64,000 nt of DNA from Streptomyces alboniger (GTDB lineage Bacteria > Actinomycetota > Actinomycetes > Streptomycetales > Streptomycetaceae), in NCBI RefSeq assembly GCF_008704395.1, contig NZ_CP023695.1:124001-188000 (forward strand), written 5' to 3'. Position numbers and translations under genes: made by a program. Shown here piece by piece: positions 4,943-37,650 of this stretch. The first letter of the stretch is position 1. Each line of letters begins with the position of its first letter. The notes under the pieces are model-generated. The model ran no database searches. It saw only the letters and a list, made by a program, of their open reading frames with translations, and was not told the origin of the DNA.

Positions 4943-5015
4943 GCCTTCGATTCCAGCAACACGCCCAGCCAGACGTCCAAGACCGAAACCGGATCTCCCT
5001 TATAACGGCCGCCTA

Positions 5016-6921: not shown

Positions 6922-7356
6922 TCAGTTCGCCCGACTCGCCGGCGCGACCACGACCAGAGGAATCTCCCGGATCGTCGCGGTGCGGTAGGTCGCATACGAG
7001 GGCGTGGCAGCCACCACCGCCGGCCACAAGCGGGCCGACTCGGGCGCCGTGGCAGGCCGGGCGGTCGCGGGGAAGGTATCCGCGCCGACCTGGAGGATGA
7101 CCTCAGGAGAGGCCAGCAGGTTTAGATACCAGGCCGGGTGGCGGTCCGCGCCCCCGTTGGACGCCGTCAGGACGTAGGCGTCCTCGTCGTCCCGGATGTA
7201 CGCCAGCGCCGTACGGCGCAGCAAGCCGGACTTGCGGCCCCGGGTGGTCAGAAGGAGATCGTTCACTCCGGGGCGGGGGCGTCCGCCGGTCTCCTCGAAA
7301 CGGCGGATGTGATCGGCGACCCACGGGGTCGGGTTGTCATGGACCGTGCCGGTCAT
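6922..7356 (-). CDS. F420-type (Ddn/DUF385) nitroreductase-family oxidoreductase
   Basis: A 144-residue split-barrel flavin-binding protein. The signature GRKSGLLRRTALAYI followed by AYVLTASNGGADRHPAWYLN and a C-terminal IREIPLVVVAP is typical of the deazaflavin (F420)-dependent nitroreductase family in actinobacteria. It likely transfers hydride from reduced F420 to a small substrate that is not identifiable here. The start overlaps the stop of the upstream NAD(P)-binding gene by 4 bp (7353-7356), so the two are translationally coupled and probably cooperate. Confidence 0.85.
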   Translation of the reverse strand: MTGTVHDNPTPWVADHIRRFEETGGRPRPGVNDLLLTTRGRKSGLLRRTALAYIRDDEDAYVLTASNGGADRHPAWYLNLLASPEVILQVGADTFPATARPATAPESARLWPAVVAATPSYATYRTATIREIPLVVVAPASRAN

Positions 7357-7961
7357 GCGACGGCCACCCCGGTGTGGAGCCGGTGCAGGGTCGGCGCCTC
7401 TACCGCCTCGTCCACCAGGGCCCGGGCGAAGTCGTGGGGCGTGATCAGGCTGTCGGCGGCGGCCGGGGCGAAGACGTACCCGCCCGTGGGCTCGCCCTCG
7501 TGGTCGAAGTCTCCCGCCGGGCTCAGCACCACCCAGTCCAGCGCTTGCGGCACGGTCTCACGCAGCGCCTTGGTGCCCGCGGCGTGGCCGAGGTAGAACT
7601 CCCGCCATTCCTGCGGGTATTCGGGGGTGTCCATCAGCAAGTCCCCTGTCTTGGTGGGCAGTACGGACGCCAGCCCGACCGACACCAGCCGCTTCACTCC
7701 CGCCGCCGGGAGCCCCTGTGTGAGGGCGCGGGCAACGGCCGGGAAGAACTCGCCGGGACGCGCCCCGGGGTCGTAGACAGCGACGATCGCCGCGTCGTGC
7801 CCGGCCGCGAGCCCTGCCACGGCGGCCGGGTCCGTCACTGATCCATCGGCCCGCCCTACTGCGGTGACCTCGTGGCCCCGCCGCCGGGCCTCTGCCACCG
7901 CGGCCCGGCCGACCCGGCCCCCCGCCCCGAAAATGACGATTCTGCTGCGCTTGGATTCCAT
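7353..7961 (-). CDS. NAD(P)H-binding oxidoreductase (atypical SDR/NmrA-like)
   Basis: A 202-residue Rossmann protein with the nucleotide-binding start RIVIFGAGGRVGRAAVAEAR, a sugar- or NAD-epimerase-like core (DAAIVAVYDPGARPGEFF, KRLVSVGLASVLP) and a C-terminal LITPHDFARALVDEAVE. It belongs to the NAD(P)H-binding SDR5-type group related to YwnB/NmrA. It is first gene of a two-gene unit with the F420-type reductase and faces the HxlR gene across 59 bp, so HxlR probably represses it in response to an electrophile or redox signal. Confidence 0.85.
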   Translation of the reverse strand: MESKRSRIVIFGAGGRVGRAAVAEARRRGHEVTAVGRADGSVTDPAAVAGLAAGHDAAIVAVYDPGARPGEFFPAVARALTQGLPAAGVKRLVSVGLASVLPTKTGDLLMDTPEYPQEWREFYLGHAAGTKALRETVPQALDWVVLSPAGDFDHEGEPTGGYVFAPAAADSLITPHDFARALVDEAVEAPTLHRLHTGVAVA

Positions 7962-12641: not shown

Positions 12642-13511
12642 TCAGCCGCCCTTGTGGATCGTCTTGAGGATCCAGCTCTTGAACGCGGGCACGTTGGAGT
12701 AGAGGCCCGGCCCCGTCCCGCAGCCTTCGCGGAGGCTGCCAGGACCGGACGTGGCGCCGATCAGCTCCCAGCGGCCGTTCTTCGCGCGCTGGAGCTGCGG
12801 GCCGCCGGAGTCGCCGTTGCACGCCATGGCCCTCGGCTTCTGGCTGACGGTGCACAGCCGCGTCCTGCCAGCCCAGCCGGGGGCGCACTCGCTGGCCGCG
12901 CCCCTGCGCGTGTCCAGTTGCTGGAGGCGGTCGGGGAACTTCGCGTCCTCCAGCGAGGGCGCCTCGACGACCGTGCCGTAGCCAAGGATGCGGGTGGGTG
13001 TGCCGACAGGACCCGCCTTGTCGGCGATGCGGACGGGCTTCTGGGAGACGGGGCGCTCCAGGCGTATCAGCGCGAGGTCGTTCTTGTTGTACGTCGTTCC
13101 CGTCATGTCCTGCACATAGCCGGGCGCGGTGACGATCTTGTCGATGCTGCGGACGGATCCGCCAGTCGTACGGTGGTCGCTCCCGACGCGGATCGTGCCG
13201 GTCAGCGTGGCCAGCTCGGGGTTGACGCAGTGCGCGGCCGTCAGGACCCACCGGGGGTCGATCAGTGTCGCCCCGCACTGCGCGCCGTACTCCTTGACCG
13301 GCACCGTCGCCATGAACGAGTAGTGCTGCGTGGCGTCCTCGCCATTGACGATGGCGCTCGCGCTGCCGCTCATCACTGAGACGCCGAGGAGCGCGGTCGC
13401 GCCGAGCGCCGCAGCGCCCCGGGCGAGCAGTCGGCGCGCGGCGCGCCGGGTGGGGCCGGCAAGGCCGGAAGAAGAGGTCCCGGGGGCGGGAGCGGTGTCC
13501 GTGGCGTGCAT
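12642..13511 (-). CDS. Secreted trypsin-like serine protease (S1)
   Basis: A 289-residue exported chymotrypsin-fold protease. The ATG at 13511 follows AAAGG and begins a long, arginine-rich signal peptide (GPTRRAARRLLARGAAALG) that may be Tat-dependent. The mature enzyme shows the triad His in VLTAAHC, Asp in KNDLALIRLE and Ser in ACNGDSGGPQ. Signal cleavage after SGSASA would expose IVNG directly, so no activation propeptide is needed, unlike most Streptomyces trypsins. An acidic residue six before the serine is absent (MACNGDSGG), so specificity is uncertain. It sits between two GlxA-like regulators and is divergent from the second. Confidence 0.88.
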   Translation of the reverse strand: MHATDTAPAPGTSSSGLAGPTRRAARRLLARGAAALGATALLGVSVMSGSASAIVNGEDATQHYSFMATVPVKEYGAQCGATLIDPRWVLTAAHCVNPELATLTGTIRVGSDHRTTGGSVRSIDKIVTAPGYVQDMTGTTYNKNDLALIRLERPVSQKPVRIADKAGPVGTPTRILGYGTVVEAPSLEDAKFPDRLQQLDTRRGAASECAPGWAGRTRLCTVSQKPRAMACNGDSGGPQLQRAKNGRWELIGATSGPGSLREGCGTGPGLYSNVPAFKSWILKTIHKGG

Positions 13512-13654
13512 GAACTGGCCTTTCGCGACAAGGGTGACGGAGGTGTGCGTGGGCGAGGCTGCTGTCCGCCTTCGTCCCGCCGCTCTGCGATCATCCTTCG
13601 CCTGCGGCCCCCGCAAACAGCGGCTGCGATGTCACCCTGGGCTAAATTCTGGAC

Positions 13655-14800
13655 ATGTCAGTGATCGCCGTCCTCGCCCTCGACGGGGTTCCGGGGCACC
13701 AGCTCACCGCCCCTGGACTGGCCTTCGCCACGGCGGCCAGGCACCACCACCCGGTCGCGTACGAGGTGCGGGTCTGCACGGGGCCGGGGTTCTCCAGCAC
13801 GGGCGGACCCGCTCCCTTCGGCATCGAGGCGCCCTGGGGCATGGAGGGGCTCGAAGACGCCGATACGGTGCTGCTGCTGGGGCATGCGGGCTTCCGGGCC
13901 GCGCCGCCGCCCGGCGTAGGTGAGGCCCTGCGGGCCGCGGCGGCGCGCGGAGCCCGCATCGGCGCCGTCGGCACCGGCACGTTCACGCTCGCGGCCACCG
14001 GTCTCCTCGACGGGCGCCGGGCAGCCACCAGTCGGCGTCACACGAGCGAACTGGCGCGACTGCACCCGCGTATCGTCGTGGACCCCGAGGGGGCCGCGGT
14101 GTCCGACGGCCCCTTCCACAGCGCGGCCGGGGTACTCGGAGGCATCGATCTGTTCCTGCACCTGATCACCCTGGACCACGGCGAGCCGGTCGCCATCGAA
14201 ACGGAACGGCAGCTCTTCCTGCACCTGCACGCAGAGGTGGAAGACGCCGACGGGGCTGCGCCCGAGGCGGGTTCGGGGTCCGCCCAAGGTGCCCTCACGA
14301 AGGGCGCGTCGGGGCCCGCTGAAGATGCCCCCGCGGAGGTCGGCTCGCGAGCGGATCCAGGTGCCCCCGCCAAGCCCGCGCCGCGAGCCTGCCAAGGTGG
14401 CGCTGCCGAGGCCGCGTACAACGCCATCACCCCGCCCGGCGGCAGCCTCGAACCGGTGACGCGGTGGATGGAGGCCAACCTCCACCACCCGCTCACCCTC
14501 AACGACATCGCGGGCCGGGCACAGCTCGGCGTCCGCAGCCTGACCCGCCGTTTCCGCGCCGAGACGGGACTCACCCCGCTCCAGTACCTGCTTCGTATGC
14601 GGATCCAGCACGCCCAGCGGCTCCTGGAGCGCACCGACGACCCGGTGGAACGCATCGCGGCCCGCAGCGGTCTTGGCACACCCGCCAACCTGCGCCACCA
14701 CTTCCAGCGCGCCACCGGCACCAGCCCCACCACCTACCGCACGGCGTTCCGTGCGCTGGTCTCCGGCATCACCTGGCCCGACCGTCCCGATCAGCCGTAA
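13655..14800 (+). CDS. GlxA-like AraC-family regulator with an inserted Ala/Pro/Gly linker
   Basis: A 381-residue paralogue of the gene at 11479-12474. The DJ-1/PfpI-like half starts MSVIAVLALDGVPGHQLTAP and contains AVGTGTFTLAATGLLDGRRA, identical to its paralogue. The AraC half starts near HHPLTLNDIAGRAQLGVRSL and ends TTYRTAFRAL. Between them, residues about 192-256 form an Ala/Gly/Pro-rich segment (for example EAGSGSAQGALTKGASG) that the paralogue lacks and which explains the extra length. It starts 143 bp from the divergent protease gene and may control it. Confidence 0.87.
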   Translation: MSVIAVLALDGVPGHQLTAPGLAFATAARHHHPVAYEVRVCTGPGFSSTGGPAPFGIEAPWGMEGLEDADTVLLLGHAGFRAAPPPGVGEALRAAAARGARIGAVGTGTFTLAATGLLDGRRAATSRRHTSELARLHPRIVVDPEGAAVSDGPFHSAAGVLGGIDLFLHLITLDHGEPVAIETERQLFLHLHAEVEDADGAAPEAGSGSAQGALTKGASGPAEDAPAEVGSRADPGAPAKPAPRACQGGAAEAAYNAITPPGGSLEPVTRWMEANLHHPLTLNDIAGRAQLGVRSLTRRFRAETGLTPLQYLLRMRIQHAQRLLERTDDPVERIAARSGLGTPANLRHHFQRATGTSPTTYRTAFRALVSGITWPDRPDQP

Positions 14801-14821
14801 TCACACCGGCAAGAAAGGATC

Positions 14822-14862
14822 GGAGTGAGTGCTCACTCATTGACGGAGTGAGCACTCACTCC
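14822..14862. promoter_or_regulatory. Double palindrome and promoter of the TetR gene
   Basis: Two 16-bp palindromes, GAGTGAGTGCTCACTC and GAGTGAGCACTCACTC, are themselves exact reverse complements, separated by 7 bp. The spacer holds a -35-like TTGACG (14840-14845); the second palindrome fills the 17-18 bp to a weak -10 (TACTCT, 14864-14869). A bound TetR dimer would therefore sit between the two promoter elements. The predicted transcript start coincides with the ATG at 14877, implying a leaderless, autoregulated mRNA. Confidence 0.8.
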
Positions 14863-14876
14863 GTACTCTCGCAGTC

Positions 14877-15488
14877 ATGACAGCACCCAAGGAGAACCAG
14901 ACCGGCCGCCGCCGCGCCCCCGGCATGTCACCGCAGGAGCGGCGCGCAATGATCATCCAGACCGCGATCCCCCTGATCGCCGAATTCGGGGCCGCGGTGA
15001 CGACCGCGAAGATCGCCCGCGCTGCCGGCATCGGCGAGGGCACGATCTTCCGGGTCTTCGCCGACAAGGACGAACTGCTACAGGCCTGCATTGCCGAGGC
15101 GCTCTCCCCCGAGCACGCGGTCCGCGAACTCGACGCGATCGACGTATCCCAGCCGCTGCCCGACCGGCTTGCGGAGGCGGCCGAGGCGCTGCAAGCGCAT
15201 ATGGCCAGGATGGGCACCATCATCGGCTCGCTGGGGCATCACGGCGGCAAGCACCCCGGCACAGTGCGCGGGGCGGGCCGTGACGAGTCGACGACCCGCA
15301 TCCGCGCCGCCCTCGCGGAGCTGCTGGAGCCCGACAAGGCCCACCTGCGCCGGCCGCCGGAGCAGATCGCGGCCCTCTTCTTCGGGCTGCTCTTCACCCA
15401 GCCTCGCACGGAGGACGAGCCCGACCTGACCCCGCGGGAACTGGTGGAGGTCTTCCTGCACGGGGCGCTCTCGGGGGACGCCAAGTGA
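14877..15488 (+). CDS. TetR-family regulator
   Basis: A 203-residue TetR protein. The HTH is residues about 22-66 (RRAMIIQTAIPLIAEFGAAV, TTAKIARAAGIGEGTIFRVF), followed by DKDELLQACI and a helical ligand domain. No Shine-Dalgarno sequence precedes the ATG, and a promoter lies directly before it, so the mRNA is probably leaderless. The stop overlaps the next start by 4 bp, coupling it to the small membrane protein. Operator palindromes immediately upstream point to autorepression. Confidence 0.9.
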   Translation: MTAPKENQTGRRRAPGMSPQERRAMIIQTAIPLIAEFGAAVTTAKIARAAGIGEGTIFRVFADKDELLQACIAEALSPEHAVRELDAIDVSQPLPDRLAEAAEALQAHMARMGTIIGSLGHHGGKHPGTVRGAGRDESTTRIRAALAELLEPDKAHLRRPPEQIAALFFGLLFTQPRTEDEPDLTPRELVEVFLHGALSGDAK

Positions 15489-15895
15489 GCGCGCGGAGAG
15501 GGCGCCTGGGGGTTACGGCCCTGGCCGTCCTGGCCCCCGTCCTGGTGTGGCTGGTCGCGGACCCCCTGCTGGGACATCGGCTGCGGATAGCCGACGGCGA
15601 GCAGAGGCTCGACATCGGCGCCGTGCCCGTGGCGGTCCTCGCACTGCTCGCCTCGCTCTGCGGCTGGGGACTGGTGGCCGCCCTGGAACAGTTCAGGGCG
15701 CGGCGCGCCCGCGCCATCTGGCATGGGGCGGCCGGCGCCGTACTGGCCGTGTCCTTCCTACCGTTCATCGGTGACGGCATGGACGGCGCTACCCGGATCA
15801 CCCTGGCCCTGATGCACCTGGCAGTGGCGGCCGTGCTGATCCCGGGGCTGGGCGCCAGACCCTCCGAGGCGAGAGCCACAGCTGCTCAGGGGTGA
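15485..15895 (+). CDS. DUF6069-like four-helix membrane protein
   Basis: A 136-residue integral membrane protein with GTG start overlapping the tetR stop (GTGA, 15485-15488). Four hydrophobic segments are visible: VTALAVLAPVLVWLVADPLL, GAVPVAVLALLASLCGWGLV, GAAGAVLAVSFLPF and ITLALMHLAVAAVLIPGL. This length and topology match DUF6069, a Streptomyces family with no known function that commonly sits next to TetR genes. It is likely the main target of the autoregulated operon. Confidence 0.78.
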   Translation: MSARRGRLGVTALAVLAPVLVWLVADPLLGHRLRIADGEQRLDIGAVPVAVLALLASLCGWGLVAALEQFRARRARAIWHGAAGAVLAVSFLPFIGDGMDGATRITLALMHLAVAAVLIPGLGARPSEARATAAQG

Positions 15896-16090
15896 CCGCC
15901 GGCACCAAGTACGCGGCGAACAGCACCGAATGGCAGCAGCCTGCTGGAGCGACGCCAGGCCGGGATGACCGTCACCGTGCCCATCACCACCGAGATGAAC
16001 AGCGACACCCGGCGGTCGGGCCCAGGCCCAGGCCCAGCAAGAGATTCCCCGCCCCGAGAGACCGTCCTGCGGGGACGGTCCCTCGGGGCA

Positions 16091-16120
16091 GCCGGCCGCC
16101 GCGCTGTCGCGGCCGCCGGC
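16091..16120. terminator. GC-rich hairpin between convergent genes
   Basis: The 13-bp arms GCCGGCCGCCGCG and CGCGGCCGCCGGC pair with one mismatch around a 4-bp loop. It lies between the convergent DUF6069 and penicillin-acylase genes and could end transcription from both sides. No T-run follows, as is usual in this genus. Confidence 0.55.
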
Positions 16121-16138
16121 GCCCGTGGTGCCGGTCGC

Positions 16139-18544
16139 TCACGCCGGGTTGAGCGTGATCCTTGTTTCCGCGTTCTCCGCGATCGCTTCCTTGCTGTAGA
16201 GCAGCGGGAAGTACTCGCCCGCGTTCCACTTCGCCGCGAGGTCGGCGTAGTGCGGGCTGCGTTCGTCCCCGGACTGGCCCGGCGCGTTGATGACGCGCGA
16301 GTCGTCCCAGGAGCCGACGTCGAGGGCCATCTTGAAGGTCGGCCCCGCGATCTGGATCCTCGGGAAGCGGTTCGGGAGGTACATTGACATGCGGACCGTG
16401 TGGTAGGTGCCGTCCGCCTGGGCGCCACCTACGTACGGGCCGCCGAGCGGGCGCATGAACACATGGATCTGCGCCGAGCCCCAGCGCCACTTGGCCGGAT
16501 CGGCGCCGAGGTGCCCGCTCACCTCGTCGTACGCCTTCGGCAGGGTGTCGAGGATCAGCTTGTCCCGGGCCTGGGCGCCCTCCTTGCCGAACCACTCCTC
16601 GGGCTCGGCGAAGGAGTCGGTCACGACGCGGAAGTCCTGCATGAGCTTGCCCTGGGTCAGGTACTGCGCGGCCTCCTTCGGCAGCAGCGTCTGCGCCCAC
16701 GCGGGGTAGAGCACGTTGGTGATCCAGGTCTCGAAGAGGACCGCTCCCGCGGAGTCCTTGCTCGCGACGCCGTCGTAGCCGCGCAGCAGGTCCAGCGCCT
16801 TCTTCGTCGTCGGGTCGGAGGACTCAAGGTCCTTCAGATACGGCAGGATCTCGGAGACCGCGAGCGACTTCACGTCGTTCTGAAGATCCATGGTGTCCTT
16901 GACGGAGGTACCCGACTGCTTCGACAGCACCTCGTCGATCCGGTCCTTGCGGTAGTGCTCCGACCACTCGTATCCGAGCGCTTCCTCGTCGCCGGGGAAG
17001 TTGTACTCATTGGCGGAGCTGACAAAACCCGACTTCGGGTTGCGCGTGACGGGGAACTCGGCGCTGTTCCTGAAGCCGGCCCACTCATAGCGTCCGTCGC
17101 CGGGCACCGGAAGCAGCCCGTCGTAGCCCTTGCCCACGCGCTTGGGCGAGAGCGCGCCGGGCACCCACCCGATGTCGCCCTTCTTGTCCGCGTACACGAG
17201 GTTGGATCCCGGGGCCTTCCAGTGCCGTACGGCCTTGGAGAAGGCATCGAGGTCCCCGGCCTTCTGGAACCTGAGGCTGCCGAGATAGGCCGAGGTGCCC
17301 GGCTGCGTCCAGACCGTGCGCACCGCGTACGCCTTGTTCTTCGCCTCGTCCACCTTGACGACCGGGCCGTGCCTGGTGAAGGAGAGCGACGACTTCCGCG
17401 CGCCCTCCCCGGCCACCGGGATGTCTTCGTCAGCGGTATTCATCGATACCCAGCGGCCGCCGTAGCGGTACTTGGTGGGGTCCCCCGGCTTGAGGTCGTA
17501 CACGTAGAGGTCCGACTGGTCGGCGGCCAGGTTGGTCAGGCCGAACGAGATCTTCCCGTTGTGCCCCATGCTGACCCCGGGGTTCCACGGCTCACCCGCG
17601 CCGATGATGTTCAGGCCGGGGGCGGAGAGGTGGGTGATGTAGCGGTTCGAGGGCGCCGAGGTGTTCGCCCGGTGCGGGTCACCCGCGAGGATGGGCCTGC
17701 CGGTGGAGGTGCGCCGCGGCGACACCGCCCAAGCGTTGCTGCCGCCCATCCCCTCGCGCAGCGCCGGGACCTCCTCGGGCTTCTTCTCCATCTTGCCGTT
17801 GTTGAAGGTCACCGGGGTCGTGGCCAGCTGGTATGTGGCCAGGACATCGTCCGGGAGCGAGCACAGGTCGAGGCCGTCGGGCACCTTGGGCTTGTGCTTC
17901 GGCTCGAGCTTCGCCAGGTACTTGCTCGCGTCCGGCCCGCCGAGACACATGAGCTTCGCCCGGGTGACCTCGTTGGTGAGGTTGCTGACGAGGCCGTGGG
18001 TGCGGATCCGCACCAGGTCCTCGGGCTTCCAGCGCGCGGGCTTGTAGCCGAGCTTGCGGAACTCCTCCGGCACGGCGTCCGGGTTCTTCTCCAGCCAGTC
18101 GACGTAGGCGTTGACGCCGGCCGCGAAGCGGGTCGCGATCTCCTTGGCCTCCGGGCCGTAGCTCGCCCACTCCTTGTCCATGTCCCCGCGGTAGAGGAAC
18201 AGCCGCGCGGCCCGGTCCTGCTCCACATAGTTCTTGCCGAGCACCTCGCTCAGCTCACCGAGCCCGCTCCGGCGCCAGGTGTCCATCTGGAAGAGCCGGT
18301 CCCGCGCGGCGTTGAACCCCTGTGCCTGGAAGAGGTCGCCGGTGGTGGACGCGGATATGTGGGGCACCCCCCACTTGTCGACCGTCATGGAGACCGGCTC
18401 CGCAAGGCCCGGCACCGCGTAGGAAGTCTCCGGGACCTCCCCGGAGCCGGACGGGTCCGGGCTCTCCGCAGTCGCCGACAGCGGCACCACCAGGGGCACC
18501 GTGAGGGCGGCCGCAGCCAGCAGTATCTTTATGGGCGGTCTCAT
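16139..18544 (-). CDS. Secreted penicillin-acylase-family Ntn hydrolase
   Basis: An 801-residue exported N-terminal-nucleophile amidohydrolase. The ATG at 18544 begins a typical signal peptide (MRPPIKILLAAAALTVPLVV ... SATAES); longer in-frame starts are rejected. The small chain spans about 40-215 (DKWGVPHISASTTGDLFQAQ, RDRLFQMDTWRRSGLGEL). A spacer follows, then autocatalytic cleavage is expected before Ser269 in GMGGSNAWAVSP, giving the large chain (ILAGDPHRANTSAPSNRY, GFVSSANEYNFPGDEEALGY). The family includes penicillin, cephalosporin and acyl-homoserine-lactone acylases; sequence alone does not give the substrate. Its promoter region is the long gap upstream. Confidence 0.88.
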   Translation of the reverse strand: MRPPIKILLAAAALTVPLVVPLSATAESPDPSGSGEVPETSYAVPGLAEPVSMTVDKWGVPHISASTTGDLFQAQGFNAARDRLFQMDTWRRSGLGELSEVLGKNYVEQDRAARLFLYRGDMDKEWASYGPEAKEIATRFAAGVNAYVDWLEKNPDAVPEEFRKLGYKPARWKPEDLVRIRTHGLVSNLTNEVTRAKLMCLGGPDASKYLAKLEPKHKPKVPDGLDLCSLPDDVLATYQLATTPVTFNNGKMEKKPEEVPALREGMGGSNAWAVSPRRTSTGRPILAGDPHRANTSAPSNRYITHLSAPGLNIIGAGEPWNPGVSMGHNGKISFGLTNLAADQSDLYVYDLKPGDPTKYRYGGRWVSMNTADEDIPVAGEGARKSSLSFTRHGPVVKVDEAKNKAYAVRTVWTQPGTSAYLGSLRFQKAGDLDAFSKAVRHWKAPGSNLVYADKKGDIGWVPGALSPKRVGKGYDGLLPVPGDGRYEWAGFRNSAEFPVTRNPKSGFVSSANEYNFPGDEEALGYEWSEHYRKDRIDEVLSKQSGTSVKDTMDLQNDVKSLAVSEILPYLKDLESSDPTTKKALDLLRGYDGVASKDSAGAVLFETWITNVLYPAWAQTLLPKEAAQYLTQGKLMQDFRVVTDSFAEPEEWFGKEGAQARDKLILDTLPKAYDEVSGHLGADPAKWRWGSAQIHVFMRPLGGPYVGGAQADGTYHTVRMSMYLPNRFPRIQIAGPTFKMALDVGSWDDSRVINAPGQSGDERSPHYADLAAKWNAGEYFPLLYSKEAIAENAETRITLNPA

Positions 18545-19393
18545 CTCGACCTTCACCTCGGGGACTTGGAGCGGATAGAGAACACCTCCGGAGGCCGGCA
18601 TGGGCCAACTGCCCGGAAGTCTCCTCACTTTAGGAGTGATCGTTTGCTCCGCCCCACCCCACACAACCCCACACTGGCAGCACGGCGCTTGGCGACTGTC
18701 AGTCACTCATGAACACCGACCGGGACCGCGGACCAGCGCGCCGCACAAGCCAGATGACGGGCCATCACATAGTTGTGGACGCGCGCGAGTGGTGCTTCAC
18801 GAGAGCGCTGTCCAGCAGGCCGACCACGACGGCCGCGGACACCGCCGGGCCGAGCCGCGAACGGCGGGCCAGCCCTCCGGTTGCGCTCGGGGCATCTGCT
18901 TGACTCCGCCGCCGGACGGCCACCTCACGGGCGGTGGCCCTGATGGACATCGCCCGTAGAGGTCTGTTCTCCGCTCTCCGCGCTGTCGGCGGCCGGGCAG
19001 CGCGCAGCTCGCCGTGGTCACTGCCTGCCCCGATCTGCCAGACCAAGTCGGGCGGGCACCCCGCTCCTCGCAAGCCATCGAAAACCCGTCAGCGACAACC
19101 GCGGACGCCTCACCGTCAGCTCCTACATCTGGACCCGCGCCACCGAAGGCGAGCACGACTTCGCCCCCTGCCTGTCACGCATCGCCCCCGACCCAGCACT
19201 ACGCGCCGTCTGGACGCCCCGGGAACGCACCTGGCCAAGGTGGTCGACAGACGCTGAGCCTGAGCGTGATGGGCAAGGTCAGGGCCGCGCGGTCCGGAAC
19301 GCCAGATACCGACTGAAGGCTTCGTGGCTGCCGGGGGTGCAGCGCCAACTCTGGGGCCGGATGCCATGGTGATGGGGTCGCCGGAAATGGCGC
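18545..19393. other. Intergenic, 849 bp, no convincing gene
   Basis: I see no ORF with a ribosome-binding site and coding-like codon use throughout. A short plus-strand stretch near 19090-19250 reads LTVSSYIWTRATEGEHDF and looks like a gene fragment of unknown origin, immediately upstream of the CRISPR-like repeats. The segment next to 18544 must hold the acylase promoter. Confidence 0.35.
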
Positions 19394-27528: not shown

Positions 27529-27924
27529 GTGACGCGGCTCGGGAGCTGCGGCGGGATCCCGCGGACGGCGATGCTGGGTCCCGATCTGCCGCGCCACCCG
27601 CCGGTGGGGACCGCGGCGCGGGAGGGGTTCGTACGCAGCGCTCTCGCTCTCGCCCTGCATGTGCGGGCGCCCAGCTGGAACGCCTCGCCCGAGGGTTGGG
27701 CCGCCACCCTCGTCACCGACCTCGCCTACGGCGACGAGACGTTGGAGACGGCGGTCAAGGTGGGCAAGTACATCCAGGAGACCGACCGGAATCCCGGAGT
27801 CGGGCCCGGGCCCGGCTCGCCGTCGGACTGGGCAGCGCGCTTGGGCGGCGCACGCGGAGTGGCGCAGCGCATGGGTCAGTTCGTGCTGAGCGCCCTCTTC
27901 CTCCCGTTCGTCTTGGGGATGTAG
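27529..27924 (+). CDS. Hypothetical protein with chimeric 3' end
   Basis: The frame shows coding-like GC third positions from about 27570 to 27890 ([37 protein letters not shown]). I do not recognise it. Its last dozen codons overlap, on the opposite strand, the end of the group II intron RT fragment, so the original C-terminus was replaced when that fragment arrived. The start is uncertain (GTG 27529 or ATG 27571). It is probably a truncated gene. Confidence 0.4.
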
Positions 27925-28154
27925 GTCCGCCGAACCGGAGTCCACCGATAGGTTCCGGTACGTAGTCTGCCGATGATCATGTCGATCTTCTCCAGGGACA
28001 TACCGTCCACGATTTCCACTGCGGCCCCAGGCGTCATCGCACCCTTGTTGGCGTAGATACGCCCGTAAGCCATCAGGGACAACTGCGGGTTGAACTGCTG
28101 CCGATACGGTCCTTCCAGCGCCAGGTTCTTCCTGCCGCGTTCCCGGAGGCTCAA
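27876..28154 (-). pseudogene. Group II intron reverse transcriptase, N-terminal fragment
   Basis: The minus strand encodes [20 protein letters not shown], then [40 protein letters not shown] and [16 protein letters not shown]. This is the RT0/RT1 start of a bacterial group II intron-encoded protein. Homology stops near 27895, so the catalytic YADD domain, maturase and endonuclease regions are absent. The element is dead. The junction truncates the plus-strand frame at 27529. Confidence 0.85.
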
Positions 28155-30210: not shown

Positions 30211-30708
30211 TCAGCGGTAGGGCCAGGTTCCGTGACCTGGTTGCTGAGCGTTCGGGTGCCCATGAAGTTGTGCTCGGAGAGAGTGGGCTATTTGGTCTGC
30301 CTGGTCAGCCGTTACCTGCTCCTGCTCTGGTCGCCGAAGCAGCTCGAAGATGCCCGGCCCACGATGCTCCGGTTGCAGATCTGCCATGCGCGGAACGATG
30401 TGGAAGTGCACGTGCGTGAAGCCTTCGGCTTCGGCGAATTGGACGACGTAGGTCTTGGTGCAACCAGTGATGCTCCGGAGAGCCCGGGAGAGCTTGACCT
30501 GCCACATTCCTAGGGCGGAGGCCTCAGCGTCGGTGAGGTCATGAACTGCGGCGACGTGGCGTCGAGGCAGCAGAACCAGCCAGCCGGGCACTGCGGTGTT
30601 GAGGGCATGGGCCACTCGCCAGTGCTGGTCACATACCACGCACTCGCGTGGTGGTAGGTCGTCGAACTCTGCTTCCTTGCTGCATGTGTAGCACTCGGGA
30701 GTCGTCAT
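30211..30708 (-). CDS. HIT-family (histidine triad) protein
   Basis: A 165-residue nucleotide hydrolase/transferase-fold protein. The start at ATG 30708 is chosen because the upstream in-frame sequence belongs to a transposase fragment. It begins with a possible zinc-binding pair CYTC ... CVVC, then LNTAVPGWLVLLPRRHVAAV and the triad GFTHVHFHIVPR (HxHxH). HIT proteins act on AMP-linked or phosphoramidate substrates. It is the only intact gene among mobile debris on this side of the PLD operon. Confidence 0.85.
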   Translation of the reverse strand: MTTPECYTCSKEAEFDDLPPRECVVCDQHWRVAHALNTAVPGWLVLLPRRHVAAVHDLTDAEASALGMWQVKLSRALRSITGCTKTYVVQFAEAEGFTHVHFHIVPRMADLQPEHRGPGIFELLRRPEQEQVTADQADQIAHSLRAQLHGHPNAQQPGHGTWPYR

Positions 30709-31108
30709 GAAATGGGATAGTAGAACTGCTTCTCCGGAAACACCTGCTGGCCTCAGCCAGTTTGTGGCTGAGGTCCGGTGAGGCGATTCGGGAGGGGACG
30801 CCTGTACCGCGTATGCAGGCGGTTCCATGAGGTCGATGTCGCAGCCGAGGCCTGCTGCGGCGCCTGGACCGGTATGCCGAGGGCCGCGGGCCCGACCCGT
30901 CCGCCTGTGTGCTGGGCTCCCAGACACGGCGGTGAGCTGTTCGAACACGCCGTCCTGTTGCCACTTGGCGAAGTAGCCGTACGTCGTGGCCCAAGGGCGA
31001 GATCGTGTCGCAGGTGTCGCCAGGGATGCCGGTGCGGTCCACGTACAGGATCGCGTCCATGAATCTGTCGCAGATCCACTCAGCTTGAACCAACACGTCG
31101 TTCGACAT
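30709..31108 (-). pseudogene. IS5-like transposase, N-terminal fragment
   Basis: The minus strand gives WICDRFMDAILYVDRTGIPG from 31108, then in another frame ALGPRRTATSPSGNRTAC and finally DGVFEQLTAV-like sequence close to the HIT gene. Together these follow an IS5-group transposase N-terminus (AILYVDRTGIPWR-LP ... Y-YF-KWQ-DGVFEQL). At least two frameshifts are present and the catalytic part is absent. Its ATG overlaps the stop of the PLD gene, so it forms the downstream boundary of the defence-like operon. Confidence 0.7.
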
Positions 31109-33783
31109 CAGGGCGTCGTCGCGTATTCGGAGGGGAAAAGGTCGGCCAGGACGCCGCCTGCCGTACAGAGCTCCTCAAGGGCCCTCCGGGTTAAGGGCTG
31201 AGTCGACTCGGCCAGCGCACCGCCCACGCCCGGCAGGTATGCGATTGTCTCGTCGGTCACGAACGAGAGGCGCCAACCACCCTCGACGGCTCTCAGGACG
31301 ACTCCATCGCAACGGCGATAGTGCTGTGCGGCGACGACCAGGCGGGGCACGCGCGCGTCAACGAACGGGGTGGTTATGCCGCGGACATCGAGCCGGAGCC
31401 GGATGGCCACCGTTTGGTCCGGCGATGCTGCCAGCCTCAACTCATCCAGGCCGAACTCTTCAGCCGTGCGAGCGCACCAAAGGTCGTCGTCGATGAAGTC
31501 GACGGCGCCGAGGAGCTGATCGACGGCCATGTCGCAGGTGACGGTTTGACGGGTTACATCGGTTAGGTAACGGCTTGTGGCCTCGGTCGGATCGAGCAGA
31601 CCGTGGGCGAGTGCCGCCGATAGGACCGGTTTGCTGGCGACGATGCGTTCGCGCCGGTCTCTGCCGGGCTGTACCAGCAGCCAGCACAGAGCCGCGACGG
31701 TTTCCGGCAGGCAAGTGGGCAGCCGGTCGAGTACTTGCGTTCGGGTGGGCTCGTCGAGCTGGTCGAGCCAGCCGTCACCCTGGCCGGTCCCTACGAACGG
31801 CCGCAGCCACAGTTGCCATATCTCGTCCAGATCGTCCTCGGTAAGTTCGCCCCGCTCCGGGTGGCGGGCTTGGTCAAGGCGGAGGCAGGCGAGGGTAAGA
31901 GCCATCACGGAGAAGTTCACAGCAGGGGCGAATGGATCGACCCATACGAGGCGCGGATCGGTTTGCGCGGCGGCCCAGCGACGCAGGAGGTTCCGGGCGC
32001 GCGTCCTGATCCGCGTGGACGGCTTCCAAGGCCGGGGCGGCCTGTGCTCCCCTTGGGCAGGTTGCTCGTGCGTACGGTCGAGGAGCTGTGCGAGCAGGGA
32101 ATGCGGATGCGCGCCGGCGGTGGCCGGGGTAGAGGCGCGGAGCGCATCGATCAGTTCGATGAGCGGTTCGGCGCCTCCTAGAGTGTGGCGCCGCCACACG
32201 CGGTTGTAGATGCTCGCCCGGGGGTCGCATGCGAACTGTTCGCGTTCGAGGCGCTCCCACAGGTCGTCATCCGTCTGTTCACTGTGCTCGCCCCGGGCCT
32301 CCGCCGCGGTGCTGGTGGTCGTGGCCAGTTCGCTGACGTCCATGGCGAGGTTGCGGTGCAGCCGGACGAGAGCCCGGCCGAGAGGTGTGTCCAATTCCGC
32401 ACCGTGGAGTTCGGGGGGAATGTCGCCGCCAGAGCGGGTCGAGCCCTTGATGAGCGTGGCGGCGAGGGCGGCCGGATCGTCGACAATGACGCGGTTCGAC
32501 AGGACTTGCTTGTCGGCGTCGAGGAGTTGGACAAGTCGGCCCTCCAGCGGCCCGACGGTTAGGACACGGCCTTTGTCATCAGCGGTGAGGGCCTGATGGC
32601 ATGTGAGGTCGTCGAGGAGCCAGTCGTCGCTCCAGGCCGGCTCGGTCGTGATCTCGATCCGGCCATCGGGATGCGCGCTGGCGGCCACGAGCTGCACCGC
32701 GGGGAGCGCCGGCTCCGGTCGGGCACGGAAACTGAGGTACGTCAGCGTTTGGAGACGGTGTTCCCGAACCGTCGTGCCGGGTGGTGTGAATGCGGCCCGA
32801 ACTTCGTCGGTTCCCAACGGGGCGAGGACGGCGAGTTCGATGTTGCCCTGAGCGGCGTGGGTCAGCCTGAGCGCGGCGCTTGAGAGGTTCGCCGAGCCGG
32901 ACAGCAGCCACGCTCGCGGTCCCGCCAGGATGCCTATGAGCTTGGCGTGGACGAACTGATCTGGCTCATAGGCGGCCACGTCCACGCCAGCGCCGCTTGT
33001 GGCGAGTCGCTCGGCGAGTCGCTCGCCGTTGACGCTGGTAGATCCGGTGACGAAGAGCTTCACCCTTTCCGGCTTCAGCATGTCGAGCAAGGTGCCGACT
33101 GCGACGGCATCGGCGTCGTAGAAGGGAGCAGCCAGCCATAACTCGTTCACGCGAGTTCCCGACTCCGTGACAACGGTTGCAAGCTGGTCGGCGATGGGGG
33201 TGTCAAGGTTGTGCAGCAGGGGCGATGGCACGTGCTGGGTAACCACGGCCGTGGACGGGATCTGGCCTTCGAGATGCTGGAAGCGTGCGGCGAGCGTGGT
33301 GTCACCGACTATGCCGACGAGGCGCCGCATCCATGACCGCCACGCGGCGATGGCGGCGTCGCCGACCAGGGTGCCCGACCTGAAGGTGGTGAACGCCTCG
33401 CGGCCGTCGTCCAGACCGCCGGCCGACAGGTTCCCGGAACCGACCAGCAGTGTGGCCCTGCCATCGGCAACCGCCAGATAGGACTTGGGGTGGAATGCCC
33501 CGCTGATCCGGACACCGCGCAGGAGCCAACGGCGGTTCACCGGTGCGAGCGTGTCGGCGCGCTGAGCGGGTATGCGGCCGAGGCTGGTGCTGAGACGCCG
33601 GTGGTCAGCCAGCACAGCGATGTTGAGCGGCGGTTCGCCGAGCCGGGCGAGGAGGAACTCGTTGAACAGCGCGAGATCCATGGTGTACGTCGTGGCCCAT
33701 AGCGCCTGCGCGCCGCCGTTGAAGAGTTCGACGATGGGCTGGACTGTACGAGTCATCGGACCGCTCTCGGGAGTGTCCGTCAT
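31108..33783 (-). CDS. PLD-like nuclease-type protein of a two-gene operon
   Basis: An 891-residue protein with two phospholipase-D-like half-sites: FHPKSYLAVADGRATLLVGS with GNLS following (His98, Lys100, Asn118), and FVHAKLIGILAGPRAWLLSG with SANLS following (His279, Lys281, Asn299). The HxK...N spacing without the HKD aspartate resembles PLD-type restriction nucleases (BfiI/NgoFVII-like) more than lipases. The remaining 550 residues are mostly helical (residues about 480-720) and end in a mixed alpha/beta region; I recognise no further domain. ATG at 33783 overlaps the 571-aa gene's stop by 4 bp. Probably cytoplasmic; nucleic-acid cleavage is inference. Confidence 0.75.
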   Translation of the reverse strand: MTDTPESGPMTRTVQPIVELFNGGAQALWATTYTMDLALFNEFLLARLGEPPLNIAVLADHRRLSTSLGRIPAQRADTLAPVNRRWLLRGVRISGAFHPKSYLAVADGRATLLVGSGNLSAGGLDDGREAFTTFRSGTLVGDAAIAAWRSWMRRLVGIVGDTTLAARFQHLEGQIPSTAVVTQHVPSPLLHNLDTPIADQLATVVTESGTRVNELWLAAPFYDADAVAVGTLLDMLKPERVKLFVTGSTSVNGERLAERLATSGAGVDVAAYEPDQFVHAKLIGILAGPRAWLLSGSANLSSAALRLTHAAQGNIELAVLAPLGTDEVRAAFTPPGTTVREHRLQTLTYLSFRARPEPALPAVQLVAASAHPDGRIEITTEPAWSDDWLLDDLTCHQALTADDKGRVLTVGPLEGRLVQLLDADKQVLSNRVIVDDPAALAATLIKGSTRSGGDIPPELHGAELDTPLGRALVRLHRNLAMDVSELATTTSTAAEARGEHSEQTDDDLWERLEREQFACDPRASIYNRVWRRHTLGGAEPLIELIDALRASTPATAGAHPHSLLAQLLDRTHEQPAQGEHRPPRPWKPSTRIRTRARNLLRRWAAAQTDPRLVWVDPFAPAVNFSVMALTLACLRLDQARHPERGELTEDDLDEIWQLWLRPFVGTGQGDGWLDQLDEPTRTQVLDRLPTCLPETVAALCWLLVQPGRDRRERIVASKPVLSAALAHGLLDPTEATSRYLTDVTRQTVTCDMAVDQLLGAVDFIDDDLWCARTAEEFGLDELRLAASPDQTVAIRLRLDVRGITTPFVDARVPRLVVAAQHYRRCDGVVLRAVEGGWRLSFVTDETIAYLPGVGGALAESTQPLTRRALEELCTAGGVLADLFPSEYATTP

Positions 33784-35495
33784 CCGAGGGCCTCTTCGAC
33801 GAATCTCATGCCCCGTGCGGTCAGTGCTGCCGGACGTCTATCGTCGTCGGTCTCAGTCCACAAGCCGAGGTCCCAAGTGAGAGATGCCAGGGGCGCATTG
33901 CGGACAGCGGCCAGCGGAAACCGCTCCACTCCATGGTCGTAGAAGTGCAGCAGGCCGTCCTCCCAACGGAAGCGGAAGGTGCGCTCTGGCAGCTTCGAGT
34001 ACGCGATGCGCTCATGGACGGGGATGACGAACCGCGACACCAGCCACCACAACGTGTCCGCCACGGTGGGGCTATCGGCCAGGTGCGTACGCAGGGCCGC
34101 GGTGACGTCTGCGATCGAGGGCTGCCATCCCGACCTGATGTCGGCAGCCTTCTGCCAGCCGTCTCCAGCGCGGCCTTCCATCCGGCGGACCAGCTCAAGC
34201 AAGACCACAAGACCGGAGGAGGCGGTATCGAGCTGGCTGGTGAGCCGTCGCAGATCGTCCAGCGGTGCGGTTGCCACATCCACGAGGATGCCGTCGGCAT
34301 CCGGTACGGCGAGCGTGCCAGCCGCGAGCTGGGCGGCGACGGCCGTGGTCGAAGAGGTGGGGCGAAGGTCCGGTTGCCCGGCTGCCAGACCTGCAGCGAC
34401 CCCGCGCACCTCATCCCAGGTGAGGCCGCGGCCGAGTTCGCCGGTTCGGATCAGGCCGGCTCGGCAGAACTCGACCCAAACCGAGCAGAGCGCCTCCTGC
34501 CAGACGTCTTTGGCTATCAGTGCCGCCCACTGGCCCGCTACCACAGCATGGGCATCGCCACGGGGCGCTGGCGGCGACCACAACCCGTCGCGGTACGCAG
34601 TCTCCGAGGCGACAACGCTCGGGTCAGCATCCAGGAGCGAGAGGTAGTGACCGACGCTGAGGCACCGCTGCCGCACTCCCGCCTCCGCGAAGACCTCCCC
34701 GATAGCTTCCGGTCCGTCACCCACACCCTGTAGTGCGCTGTTCTCGTCGCCCCCTGGGGAGCGTGCTTCGATGGTCGGGGCGTCCGTGCAGAACAGCGCG
34801 GCGTGGACGGCAGCACGCTCTTCGGGCAGCTCTCTCAGACGGCACAAGCAGGCGGCATGGGCGTACTCATCGAGTACATCGGCAGGCAGGTCATCGGTCG
34901 TCCACATGACACGCTGGTAGTACGCGGTGTGCTCCACAGCGGACTTGAACGCGCTGGCGGGCCGCCGGGCCCGGTCGGTGTCGTGGAGCACGTCGATAGG
35001 GATGGGCCGACCGCCAAGCAGCGTCCCAGCTCTGGCTACGATGCCGAACTCCGCCATCGGCGAGCGATAGTACAACCCGTAACCGCCAAAGGCACTCGCC
35101 ACTGATTCGCCCCGTTCATAGGGGCCCGGCCCCCTCGCCAGTCCGCTCAGCCTGCGGGCTCCCACCGGGCTCGATCCGCAGCCCCGGGGGCATCGCAGCA
35201 CGGCGAGGCCGAACTCCCATTCGCGACGCTTGATGAACGCCGACAGCGCATTTCCGTCGGCCGCCAAGTGACGGTCCCGGTACTCAGCGAGCAGGAAGGC
35301 ATGAAAGGAGAAGTAGCGGGCCCGCCGGGTCAGCTCCAGGATCCCAGGCAGCAGAACCGGCATCAATCGGTCCTGCGTGGTCGTCTGGAGCCCGAGCGGG
35401 TCCCGGCCTTCTTTGAGCTTCAGCGAGGCCTCGATCCAGGCCGGTGCAGGCACTCTCGTCCCGTCTGCCGCCCACCCTTCAGTCTGCACGGCCAC
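33780..35495 (-). CDS. 571-aa protein of unknown family, partner of the PLD protein
   Basis: The GTG at 35495 is chosen for its strong GGAGG nine bases upstream; a longer frame to 35609 lacks one. The protein begins VAVQTEGW and has the conserved-looking segments WIEASLKLKEGRDPLGLQTT, LPGILELTRRARYFSFHAFL and FIKRREWEFGLAVLRCPRGC, then SAFKSAVEHTAYYQRVMW. The C-terminal third is helical and ends RPAALTARGMRFVEEALG. No membrane helix, ATPase motif or nuclease motif is visible. I do not recognise the family. Tight coupling to the PLD gene and location in a debris-rich island suggest a sensor or scaffold of a defence system. Confidence 0.65.
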   Translation of the reverse strand: MAVQTEGWAADGTRVPAPAWIEASLKLKEGRDPLGLQTTTQDRLMPVLLPGILELTRRARYFSFHAFLLAEYRDRHLAADGNALSAFIKRREWEFGLAVLRCPRGCGSSPVGARRLSGLARGPGPYERGESVASAFGGYGLYYRSPMAEFGIVARAGTLLGGRPIPIDVLHDTDRARRPASAFKSAVEHTAYYQRVMWTTDDLPADVLDEYAHAACLCRLRELPEERAAVHAALFCTDAPTIEARSPGGDENSALQGVGDGPEAIGEVFAEAGVRQRCLSVGHYLSLLDADPSVVASETAYRDGLWSPPAPRGDAHAVVAGQWAALIAKDVWQEALCSVWVEFCRAGLIRTGELGRGLTWDEVRGVAAGLAAGQPDLRPTSSTTAVAAQLAAGTLAVPDADGILVDVATAPLDDLRRLTSQLDTASSGLVVLLELVRRMEGRAGDGWQKAADIRSGWQPSIADVTAALRTHLADSPTVADTLWWLVSRFVIPVHERIAYSKLPERTFRFRWEDGLLHFYDHGVERFPLAAVRNAPLASLTWDLGLWTETDDDRRPAALTARGMRFVEEALG

Positions 35496-35562
35496 CTGTT
35501 CTCGCCTCCCCTGTGCCGACCAGGCTTCCCGTAGAACTCCCGTAGCCAGCCGTGCACGACCA

Positions 35563-35576
35563 AGAACTAGAGTTCT
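35563..35576. promoter_or_regulatory. Palindrome upstream of the two-gene PLD operon
   Basis: AGAACTAGAGTTCT has perfect 6-bp arms around AG, overlapping a second inverted repeat CTAGAGTTCTAG. It lies about 70 bp upstream of the GTG start and could be an operator. The binding protein is unknown. Confidence 0.45.
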
Positions 35577-35686: not shown

Positions 35687-36478
35687 CTACGCTTCCCGCG
35701 TGGGCAGCACGGAGATCTGGGACAGGTTGATGTGTCGCGGGCGCTCGACGGCAAAGGCGATCAGCTCGGCGACGTCGCTCCCCGAGGGGATGCCCTCGAT
35801 GGAGGCCACGGCCTCTTGGACGGCGGCGCTGATGGCCGGTTCGTCGATGTGGTCGCGCAGCTCGGTGCCGACGGTGCCGGGTTCGATGTTCGTCACGCGT
35901 ACGTCGGCGGGGCTGAGCTGGGCCCGCAGATTGCGGGAGAGGTGGCTGAAAGCGGCCTTGGAGGCGGCGTACCCGGCGAAGCCGGGCAGGACGGACTGGG
36001 CGGCCGCGGAGGAGATGTTGACCAGGTCCGCGTGGCCCCGCTCGGCCGCTGCCGCGAGCAGGTCCGGGACGAATGTCTCCACGACGGCGAACGCGCCGGT
36101 GACGTTCACGTCGATCATCCTCCGCCAGTTGGCGCCCGCCGACCCGTCCAGGAGGTCGGGCAGGGCGAGGCCGGCGTTGTTGACGACGAGGTCGACGCGG
36201 CCGAGGCGGGCGTGGATGTCGGCGGCGGCCGCGGTGAGCGAGGCGGGGTCGGTCACGTCGGTGGGCAGGGCGAGGGCGGTGCCGCCGGCCGCCTCGATGT
36301 GGGCCACGTGCTCTTCCAGGCGATCGGCGCGCCGGGCCAGCAGGGCGACGTGCGCACCCTGGGCGGCCAGTTTGCGGGCTGTCGCCTCGCCGATGCCGCT
36401 GGAGGCTCCGGTCACGACGGCGATCCGGCCGGTGAGGGGGCGGGCGAGGGAGGCGGTCTGCTCGGTGGTGATGGTCAT
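35687..36478 (-). CDS. SDR-family oxidoreductase
   Basis: A 263-residue classical short-chain dehydrogenase/reductase. The ATG at 36478 has GGGAG upstream. The cofactor loop is GRIAVVTGASSGIGEATARK, with LARRADRLEE favouring NADP(H), the structural NNAG in LVVNNAGLALPDL and the active-site SSAAAQSVLPGFAGYAASKA (Ser...YxxxK). The C-terminus reads INLSQISVLPTREA, common in Streptomyces YdfG/Sdr-like enzymes. It is divergent from the XRE-type regulator, which probably controls it. Confidence 0.9.
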   Translation of the reverse strand: MTITTEQTASLARPLTGRIAVVTGASSGIGEATARKLAAQGAHVALLARRADRLEEHVAHIEAAGGTALALPTDVTDPASLTAAAADIHARLGRVDLVVNNAGLALPDLLDGSAGANWRRMIDVNVTGAFAVVETFVPDLLAAAAERGHADLVNISSAAAQSVLPGFAGYAASKAAFSHLSRNLRAQLSPADVRVTNIEPGTVGTELRDHIDEPAISAAVQEAVASIEGIPSGSDVAELIAFAVERPRHINLSQISVLPTREA

Positions 36479-36538
36479 GGTGGTCTCCCAGGGTGCGTGT
36501 ACGGACCGCGTTGGGTGCGAGGTCCTTTGGTGTCTTGT

Positions 36539-36566
36539 GCATGAGGCCACCTGCATGAGGCCTCAT
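36539..36566. promoter_or_regulatory. Direct repeat and palindrome in the SDR/XRE divergent region
   Basis: GCATGAGGCC occurs at 36539-36548 and 36553-36562, the second forming the perfect palindrome ATGAGGCCTCAT (36555-36566). It sits 60-90 bp from the SDR start and about 150 bp from the regulator start, a reasonable operator for the divergent pair. Confidence 0.5.
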
Positions 36567-36714
36567 GACGGTGCGGGTCCCCGCGATCTCTTGCGGGCCC
36601 CGCGGTGGCTCGCGGTGTCTTGCGGTAGTGACTCTGCGGGAGATCCGCTCCCCTACCCAGGGCTCGGCTCGACCCTGGGTCTGGCAGAACCACCCTGTGA
36701 CGGACACTTGACCC

Positions 36715-37650
36715 ATGGACTTCCGCACTGAGCTCTCCGCGTTCCTCCGCTCCCGCCGCGCCCGGCTGGGGCCGGAGGACCTCGGCGTACGCCCGTTCAG
36801 TGGCCGCCGACGTGTTCCTGGCCTGCGGCGTGAAGAGCTGGCGGACCTGGCGGGGGTGAGCGTCGACTACTACATACGGCTCGAGCAGGGCCGCACCCAC
36901 AATGTCTCCGACCATGTCCTGGACGCCGTCGCCAGGGCCTTGCGCCTGGACGAAGCCGAACGCGCGCACCTGGGCCACCTCACCCGCGCCCTGCGCCATC
37001 CGGCTTCGACACCTCCCGTCCCGCAACCGGTCAGGACGGGTGTGCGGGTCCTGCTCACGGCGCTCGGCGAGGTGCCCGCGTACGTGCTGGGCCGCCGACT
37101 GGACATCCTGGCGTCCAATGAGGCGGCCCGAGCGCTGTTCACCGACTTCGAGGCCCTGCCGTCCGGGCAGCGCAACGCGGCCTGGCTGATCTTCCTCGAC
37201 CCGGCCGTGCGCGGCTTGTACCCGGACCGGGAGGCGTGGGAGGAGAGCGCGCGCGGCACCGTCGCGGCCCTGCGCTTGGACCTGGGCCGGTACCCCTGTG
37301 ATGACCGGCTGTGCGATCTGCTCGGCGAACTGTCGGTGCGCAGCGAGGACTTCCGCGCCCTGTGGGCCGAGCACCATGTGGGCGAGCACGCCTACGGCAT
37401 CGAGCGGCTGCGTCACCCCACGGCTGGTGAGCTGACCCTGCGCCGCGAGACGCTGCGCCTGCCCGGCGAGGGCGACCAGTGTCTGGTCACGTACGCGGCC
37501 GAACAGGACACTCCGTCCCACTCGGCCCTCGCCGGCCTCGGGGCGCCTCAGCGTTGCGGCGTGGGGAACGCGACGGGGCTGCGCAGGCCGGAGCGGCCGA
37601 CCGCGCGTACGCCGAAGAAGACGTTGTCCTTGGACAGGTCGACGGTGTGA
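36715..37650 (+). CDS. XRE-type regulator with MmyB-like ligand domain, C-terminal read-through
   Basis: A 311-residue regulator. The HTH is residues about 15-75 (RRRVPGLRREELADLAGVSV, YYIRLEQGRTHNVSDHVLDA). The MmyB-like domain follows (VPAYVLGRRLDILASNEAAR, LFTDFEALPSGQRNAAWLIF, GIERLRHPTAGELTLRRETL). Family members normally end soon after the strand QCLVTYAAEQDTPSHSALAG. Here the frame runs about 33 residues further, antisense to the 3' end of the M28 peptidase gene, so the original stop may have been lost. It is divergent from the SDR gene. Confidence 0.87.
   Translation: MDFRTELSAFLRSRRARLGPEDLGVRPFSGRRRVPGLRREELADLAGVSVDYYIRLEQGRTHNVSDHVLDAVARALRLDEAERAHLGHLTRALRHPASTPPVPQPVRTGVRVLLTALGEVPAYVLGRRLDILASNEAARALFTDFEALPSGQRNAAWLIFLDPAVRGLYPDREAWEESARGTVAALRLDLGRYPCDDRLCDLLGELSVRSEDFRALWAEHHVGEHAYGIERLRHPTAGELTLRRETLRLPGEGDQCLVTYAAEQDTPSHSALAGLGAPQRCGVGNATGLRRPERPTARTPKKTLSLDRSTV

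Follow-up and report, generated by a model that had tools for sequence, protein, structure and literature searches.

A co-inherited, mobile gene pair related to Azaca, with a predicted PLD-fold protein and probably a role in defence, in Streptomyces alboniger

Enzymes of the PLD superfamily work through a covalent phospho-histidine intermediate, and the superfamily also holds lipid enzymes. The genes of the Azaca system we take to be ZacA, ZacB and ZacC. Azaca has been tabulated with a PLD-like domain (PMC10952713), and ZacC was named as its SF1/SF2 helicase (PMC12278908). Here we describe a pair of genes, A and B, in which the PLD core of B resembles ZacB and the N-terminal region of A resembles ZacA by profile comparison, in the same gene order, A then B. 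As judged by titles and abstract openings, which are weak evidence of absence, no paper was recognised as describing the pair. A sequence-only reading of the same DNA had put it forward as a candidate new defence system. Defence was supported by co-inheritance and by the neighbouring genes; the pair is not wholly new, since B is distantly related to ZacB and part of A to ZacA.

The window, the whole stretch of 64,000 nucleotides that was analysed, corresponds to positions 124001-188000 of a 7.96-Mb single-contig genome, in which a genome search found one copy each of A and B. The sequence-only reading had described two overlapping genes with a ribosome-binding site and an upstream palindrome, and all of these were recovered in the following layout.

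33780-35495, minus strand: gene A, 571 aa, GTG start, first gene of the pair, without a Pfam domain
31108-33783, minus strand: gene B, 891 aa, ATG start, double-PLD protein with a long C-terminal region
33780-33783, minus strand: 4-bp overlap (ATGA) of the A stop and the B start, the junction reading GGATGACGG
35505-35511, minus strand: ribosome-binding site GGGGAGG in the sequence, 9 nt 5' of the GTG of gene A
35563-35576, no strand: palindrome AGAACTAGAGTTCT upstream of gene A, a possible operator, not conserved in the family

A 4-bp overlap start (ATG or GTG) was possible in 29 of the 46 named loci with both genes; the remaining loci had an 8-bp overlap with a TTG codon (14), a 1-bp overlap (1) or none of these (2). 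Two close orthologs of B were available, in the loci L065 (84-86%) and L066 (82%). The dN/dS ratio (Nei-Gojobori) was 0.186 for gene A against L066, and for gene B 0.269 against L066 and 0.303 against L065. The earlier remark that neither gene is broken is backed by these values: A and B are intact and under purifying selection.

The core of the palindrome, GAACN4GTTC, fits the actinobacterial LexA pattern. In the L066 ortholog the arms were identical and the spacer was 5 instead of 4. Reading the palindrome as a LexA/SOS operator was dropped: the core stood upstream of only one of 79 A genes tested, and in the genome it occurred 77 times, the reversed pattern 44 times.

The neighbourhood had been said to contain pieces of four or more kinds of mobile element. 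This could not be confirmed: none of the 10 ORFs scanned beside the pair matched a Pfam transposase or reverse transcriptase, and two were remnant-like by eye only. One is a 92-aa ORF at 27876-28154 (minus strand), which by eye is similar to the beginning of a reverse transcriptase from a group II intron and had no Pfam match. The other, at 30629-31108 (minus strand), has by eye the appearance of a transposase remnant of the IS5 type with a frameshift, the pieces of which had no Pfam match; about 30926-31077 within it matched scattered places in congeners. Flanking the pair at 35687-37650 are genes for a short-chain dehydrogenase and, divergent from it, an MmyB-like regulator (MLTR_LBD), probably an ordinary regulator-enzyme unit. 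Alongside the window copy of the pair no known defence gene was identified, and Rfam gave no match at gathering scores within the window. Two flank searches over 61 genomes, the own genome included, gave scattered gene-by-gene matches and no empty site of the pair among the matches listed.

Gene B carries the following features.

32749-33741, minus strand: PLD catalytic core of B, residues about 15-345, from the predicted structure and Foldseek
33484-33492, minus strand: half-site 1, H98-P-K100 (N118 at 33430-33432), at least 90% conserved in 42 sequences
32941-32949, minus strand: half-site 2, H279-A-K281 (N299 at 32887-32889, then E316), with H279, K281 and E316 invariant in 42 sequences

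Both half-sites, H98/K100/N118 and H279/K281/N299, were thus present as the sequence-only reading had them. In the 42-sequence alignment H279, K281 and E316 were invariant, and H98, K100, N118, E129 and N299 were at least 90% conserved. A simple pattern matched both half-sites in 13 of 18 plasmid B proteins; it missed half-site 1 in the B proteins of Polaromonas pPNAP03, both Sphingopyxis and Roseomonas, and half-site 2 in that of Halorussus, so that some members may use a variant. The only Pfam match of B was PLDc_2 with 26.4 bits, just under the cut-off of 27. In the structural model the ten-residue pLDDT means were mostly 62-96 over residues about 15-345, falling to 42-52 at residues 61-80, and beyond this core the pLDDT was mostly below 60. 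B has the two HxK...GSxN half-sites and the predicted fold that define the PLD superfamily. We concluded that B is, by prediction, a PLD-fold protein with conserved catalytic residues.

When the modelled core was compared with solved structures by Foldseek, Tdp1 ranked first (E 8.6e-9, 13% identity, target TM-score 0.45, rmsd 6.5). The Tdp1 matches were moderate throughout, with target TM-scores of about 0.45-0.5, rmsd of 6-10 and 9-14% identity. Lipid PLD and polyphosphate kinase were also among the top 50 matches. Searching the solved structures by sequence with A and B, alone or as profiles, gave no meaningful match. It had been asked whether structure prediction would point to a lipid enzyme; in the modelled core Tdp1, a DNA enzyme, came ahead of the lipid PLDs, both being listed. 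From this ranking of Tdp1, then lipid PLD and polyphosphate kinase, one might suppose that B repairs or reverses protein-DNA adducts in the manner of Tdp1, or acts on lipids, in a housekeeping or stress role on mobile DNA. We regard this as improbable: the distribution of B relatives is patchy (27 of 392 congeners, the own genome included), and this, the carriage on plasmids and the repeated defence neighbours are unlike a housekeeping gene.

For gene A two regions could be delimited.

34776-35429, minus strand: N-terminal region of A, residues about 23-240, alignable with ZacA (DUF6361), hhalign probability 90, E 1.7e-6
33783-33938, minus strand: C-terminal end of A, residues about 520-571, putatively winged-helix-like, from a pattern in 25 sequences

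Gene A had been said to have no known domain. This stood for Pfam, where a scan of A gave no match, but A has a remote N-terminal region in common with ZacA/DUF6361. The A protein of Prevotella reached the cut-off of the Pfam model HTH_45 (26.1 against 25.5 bits), and the other four of the five A proteins scanned together had no match. This one match and the pattern at the C-terminal end of A make a winged helix probable. The model of A was helical and poor (mean pLDDT 51.5), and Foldseek against solved structures returned nothing at E ≤ 0.001, so that its fold could not be placed; with a poor model and no structural match, the role of A is a guess.

The search for relatives gave 83 B loci, 68 of them distinct at 99.5% B identity. 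An A-family ORF adjoined B directly upstream on the same strand in 64 of the 68 (partial in L065, L111 and L116). The four exceptions were L131, which ends at a contig edge, L115 and L136, which retain no more of A than its C-terminal end, and L137, which has a remnant of B. B was split into two ORFs in L031 and L135. Near the truncation of A in L136, where the B ORF is also shortened to 499 aa, lies an ORF at 3167-4144 (minus strand) that is transposase-like by eye. Beside the B ortholog of L065 four ORFs of 455, 637, 247 and 369 aa lie on the same strand (2710-7822, minus strand), and the 247-aa ORF looks by eye like a transposon AAA ATPase.

Within the class, B relatives were found in 9 of 394 genomes, the own genome included, and a search with A in 100 relatives returned the own genome and one other, weakly. 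Scanning the genome collection with a six-sequence B alignment, which represents a sister clade and would hardly pick up distant phyla or the clade of the window itself, gave 50 loci, all in Actinomycetota. The plasmid collection was searched with the proteins P0002 and P0001 and two plasmid B proteins; 24 records matched and 18 were opened. Of the six left out, five (Sphingobium one, Myroides two, Roseomonas two) had match figures identical to those of opened records or of one another, and the sixth was an unannotated Novosphingobium place. The hosts of the opened plasmids were Roseovarius, Sphingopyxis (2), Sphingobium, Roseomonas, Polaromonas (2 plasmids), Undibacterium, Myroides, Prevotella, Miltoncostaea, Streptomyces (4 plasmids), Mycobacterium avium, Halorussus and Halobaculum. 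The pair thereby ranges over Actinomycetota, Pseudomonadota (Alpha- and Betaproteobacteria), Bacteroidota and haloarchaea.

An A-family gene stood directly before B in all 18 plasmid records opened, annotated each time as 'hypothetical protein'. With the first-pass profile 17 of the 18 plasmid A genes were recognised at E ≤ 2.2e-5 and that of Roseomonas at 0.017; a profile rebuilt from the 16 below 1e-5 also took in the other two. The final E-values of 1e-96 or better are circular, as the profile contains all 18, and the best control ORF reached 0.043. No relative of the pair was found in phage records within the reach of the search, nor in viral contigs by three scans from short exact peptide patterns, and PHROGs gave no match for six proteins. 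The survey of co-inheritance that the sequence-only reading had called for was thus clear on both genome loci and plasmids: A-B is a co-inherited, mobile gene pair.

A survey of gene neighbourhoods had also been proposed, with the prospect that the pair might occur in housekeeping contexts only. Instead, defence genes were repeatedly found beside it. HsdM (E < 1e-20) lay near the pair in 16 of the 68 distinct loci, and in 9 of 46 and 6 of 21 when loci were counted at 90% and 70% B identity. It was absent at E ≤ 1e-10 from 40 control stretches, each of about 20 kb and together 796 kb, which were taken from 12 genomes at hand-picked positions; genes neighbouring the pair had served to train the HsdM profile, which may favour pair loci. 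A CHAT-protein profile matched in one of the 40 control stretches.

Several neighbourhoods place the pair inside or against known systems. For L026 and L033 Pfam bore out the type I RM genes, and L033 has the gene order HsdM-HsdS-HsdR-(223 aa)-A-B. On the Myroides plasmid the pair lies inside a type I RM run (methyltransferase-HsdS-A-B-HsdR), and type I RM adjoins it on the Roseovarius plasmid. A BREX locus (L025) reads PglX, an unassigned stretch of about 2.2 kb, A-B, BrxC and PglZ (1652, 1248 and 660 bits), and PglW adjoins the pair in L117. HsdM, an Mrr-type nuclease, an EcoR124_C protein and a TrwC relaxase were found in L031. ZorC1 and ZorD1 of Zorya are beside the pair on Polaromonas pPNAP01, QatC/QatD are about 1 kb away on the Roseomonas plasmid, a DrmD-like gene is near it on the Sphingobium plasmid, and in M. 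avium pS2b a methyltransferase and a restriction gene follow directly downstream. CHAT genes were near the pair in two Streptomyces plasmids. Product names on the other opened plasmids gave no named defence system, with the exception of AbiEii-type genes (Sphingopyxis), a DEAD helicase and Sir2 (Prevotella) and NACHT (S. jietaisiensis NBC_00023). In L066, the 82% ortholog, a MkoA-like helicase (8e-95) and a PLD protein are encoded just upstream.

Clade 2 had the block HsdR-HsdS-HsdM-c4 in divergent orientation to A-B, after which came either a TPR-S/CHAT protein (1271 aa) or a CBASS-effector-like HNH protein. L073, L076 and similar loci form a recurrent island in which type I RM and c4 (732 aa, of no recognised kind, with a weak mads_2 match) are divergent from A-B; the TPR-S/CHAT or HNH gene lies at the opposite end, which gives the impression of two effectors replacing each other at a single position. 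The stretch at 12847-19032 (minus strand) of L066 encodes the MkoA-like helicase, an unknown 426-aa protein and the PLD protein, which scores higher with DrmC than with MkoB, and is possibly a Mokosh variant next to the ortholog of the window's pair. Directly 3' of the pair in L118, from Actinokineospora iranica, lies a gene for a 2097-aa protein that joins a protein kinase (PD-T4-6-like) to a DruE-like helicase with an MZB domain (12763-19056, plus strand).

Such arrangements bear on the main rival to our interpretation, in which the pair is an accessory effector or back-up of type I RM, BREX, Zorya or DISARM-like systems: those would find and unwind the DNA and A-B would cut it. The insertion of the pair inside or against operons in Myroides, L025 and L033 and the conserved divergent type I RM block of clade 2 speak for it, as does the helicase that the related Azaca proteins had of their own in six of the seven loci opened. 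Yet no HsdM was found in 52 of the 68 distinct loci within the stretch covered, the window among them, and the partners vary between loci, which suggests independence of the pair. We judge the accessory role rather unlikely; it overlaps with the explanation that we prefer, and the confidences of the best and rival readings likewise overlap and do not add to one.

As the pair travels together and often adjoins antivirus genes, it is probably a defence system, judging from genomic context. The explanation that we prefer, and consider likely, is that A-B is a horizontally moving, helicase-free, two-gene defence module with a PLD effector, related to Azaca, in which B would cut or process DNA and A would control it. 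B would most likely be a PLD-superfamily phosphodiesterase that cleaves or processes invading DNA through the covalent phospho-histidine, its action being on nucleic acid. A, the constant partner, would most likely serve as the recognition and control subunit that recognises or licenses, and its probable C-terminal winged helix, next to the N-terminal region common to ZacA, could contact DNA. The two together may protect against phages or plasmids.

A wider proposal treats A-B as an uncatalogued cross-domain immune module of a winged-helix partner and a Tdp1-like PLD enzyme, which would stand alone and also be plugged into many DNA-surveillance systems that are unrelated to each other. Instead of plain DNA cleavage, its action would perhaps be directed at DNA ends, or at linkages between protein and DNA, that phages and conjugative elements make. 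We put this forward tentatively, as possible and somewhat doubtful. If the helicase-free module exists as we prefer to see it, a defence module that spans Streptomyces to haloarchaea is missing from the PADLOC 2023 models, and a ZacA/ZacB-like core can work without a helicase. Because the pair repeatedly lies within or next to type I RM, BREX, Zorya and Qat, cooperation between defence systems would then be directly testable, and with a B relative in 27 of 392 sampled congeners the pair is common enough to study in the genus.

None of the model libraries searched had an entry specific to the pair. Among known systems, the PADLOC models that B matched were ZacB (8e-7), DrmC (7e-4) and PDC-M27B (0.04). 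With DrmC of DISARM and MkoB of Mokosh B shares an HxK...N PLD core in a defence setting. The match to DrmC is weak, however, with 23 bits against a cut-off of 133 (NCBIfam), well short of assigning B to DrmC; A and B match no Mko model, the MkoA-like gene being only a neighbour in L066. The PADLOC candidate PDC-M27 is similar through its PDC-M27B model (E 0.04 for the B of the window, 1e-5 for the best relative), but the match covers about 35-85 residues around one half-site and the A proteins match no PDC-M27 model. Three B relatives weakly match PF09565 of the NgoFVII-type PLD restriction endonucleases, at 13-15.7 bits against the curated cut-off of 23.8. Tdp1 has in common with B a PLD fold with two half-sites (Foldseek E 8.6e-9); B differs from it by an identity of only about 13%, a moderate superposition, a long extra C-terminal region, a constant partner gene and the prokaryotic defence setting.

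The comparison with Azaca goes further. By hhalign B matched ZacB with a probability of 97 (E 2.8e-11), both half-sites being covered, and A matched ZacA with a probability of 90 (E 1.7e-6) over the N-terminal 175 columns, the alignable part of A being N-terminal only. A wider A set gave a probability of 91 (E 1e-6) against ZacA, and the PADLOC ZacA model matched A at 1e-3 over residues 25-95. The ZacA of L034 is DUF6361 (E 4.5e-54), the Pfam model of which matched neither A nor eight other A proteins, so that by this model A is not an Azaca ZacA. ZacA matches were found in 11 genomes, and in six of the seven loci opened ZacC was present with 850-1706 bits, the exception being L039 with a weak ZacA match; five of these six loci had supplied the sequences for the ZacC profile, so only L035 is an independent match. 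No ORF of the pair loci or the window scored above 27 bits with ZacC (five ORFs were at 26-27), which does not suffice for a ZacC, and a search of the own genome gave no match.

When the B cores of 30 pair members were placed in one tree with 4 ZacB sequences, each group fell on one side of a branch with support of 100/100. Within the pair family the window clade sat on a long branch next to other actinobacterial pairs at 92/96, which makes its exact place unsure; an earlier actinobacterial tree had given a long-branch warning at the same clade. A divergent Azaca that lost ZacC, or that uses a helicase encoded elsewhere, would explain the shared gene order and the two profile matches. It is hardly likely in view of the ZacC searches of the pair loci and the own genome, the separate B clade and the sizes of the proteins, about 485-630 aa for A and about 730-905 aa for B against about 420-490 aa for ZacA and about 580-620 aa for ZacB. 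By these sequence comparisons the helicase-free pair that we prefer is placed as related to but distinct from Azaca, its nearest known system.
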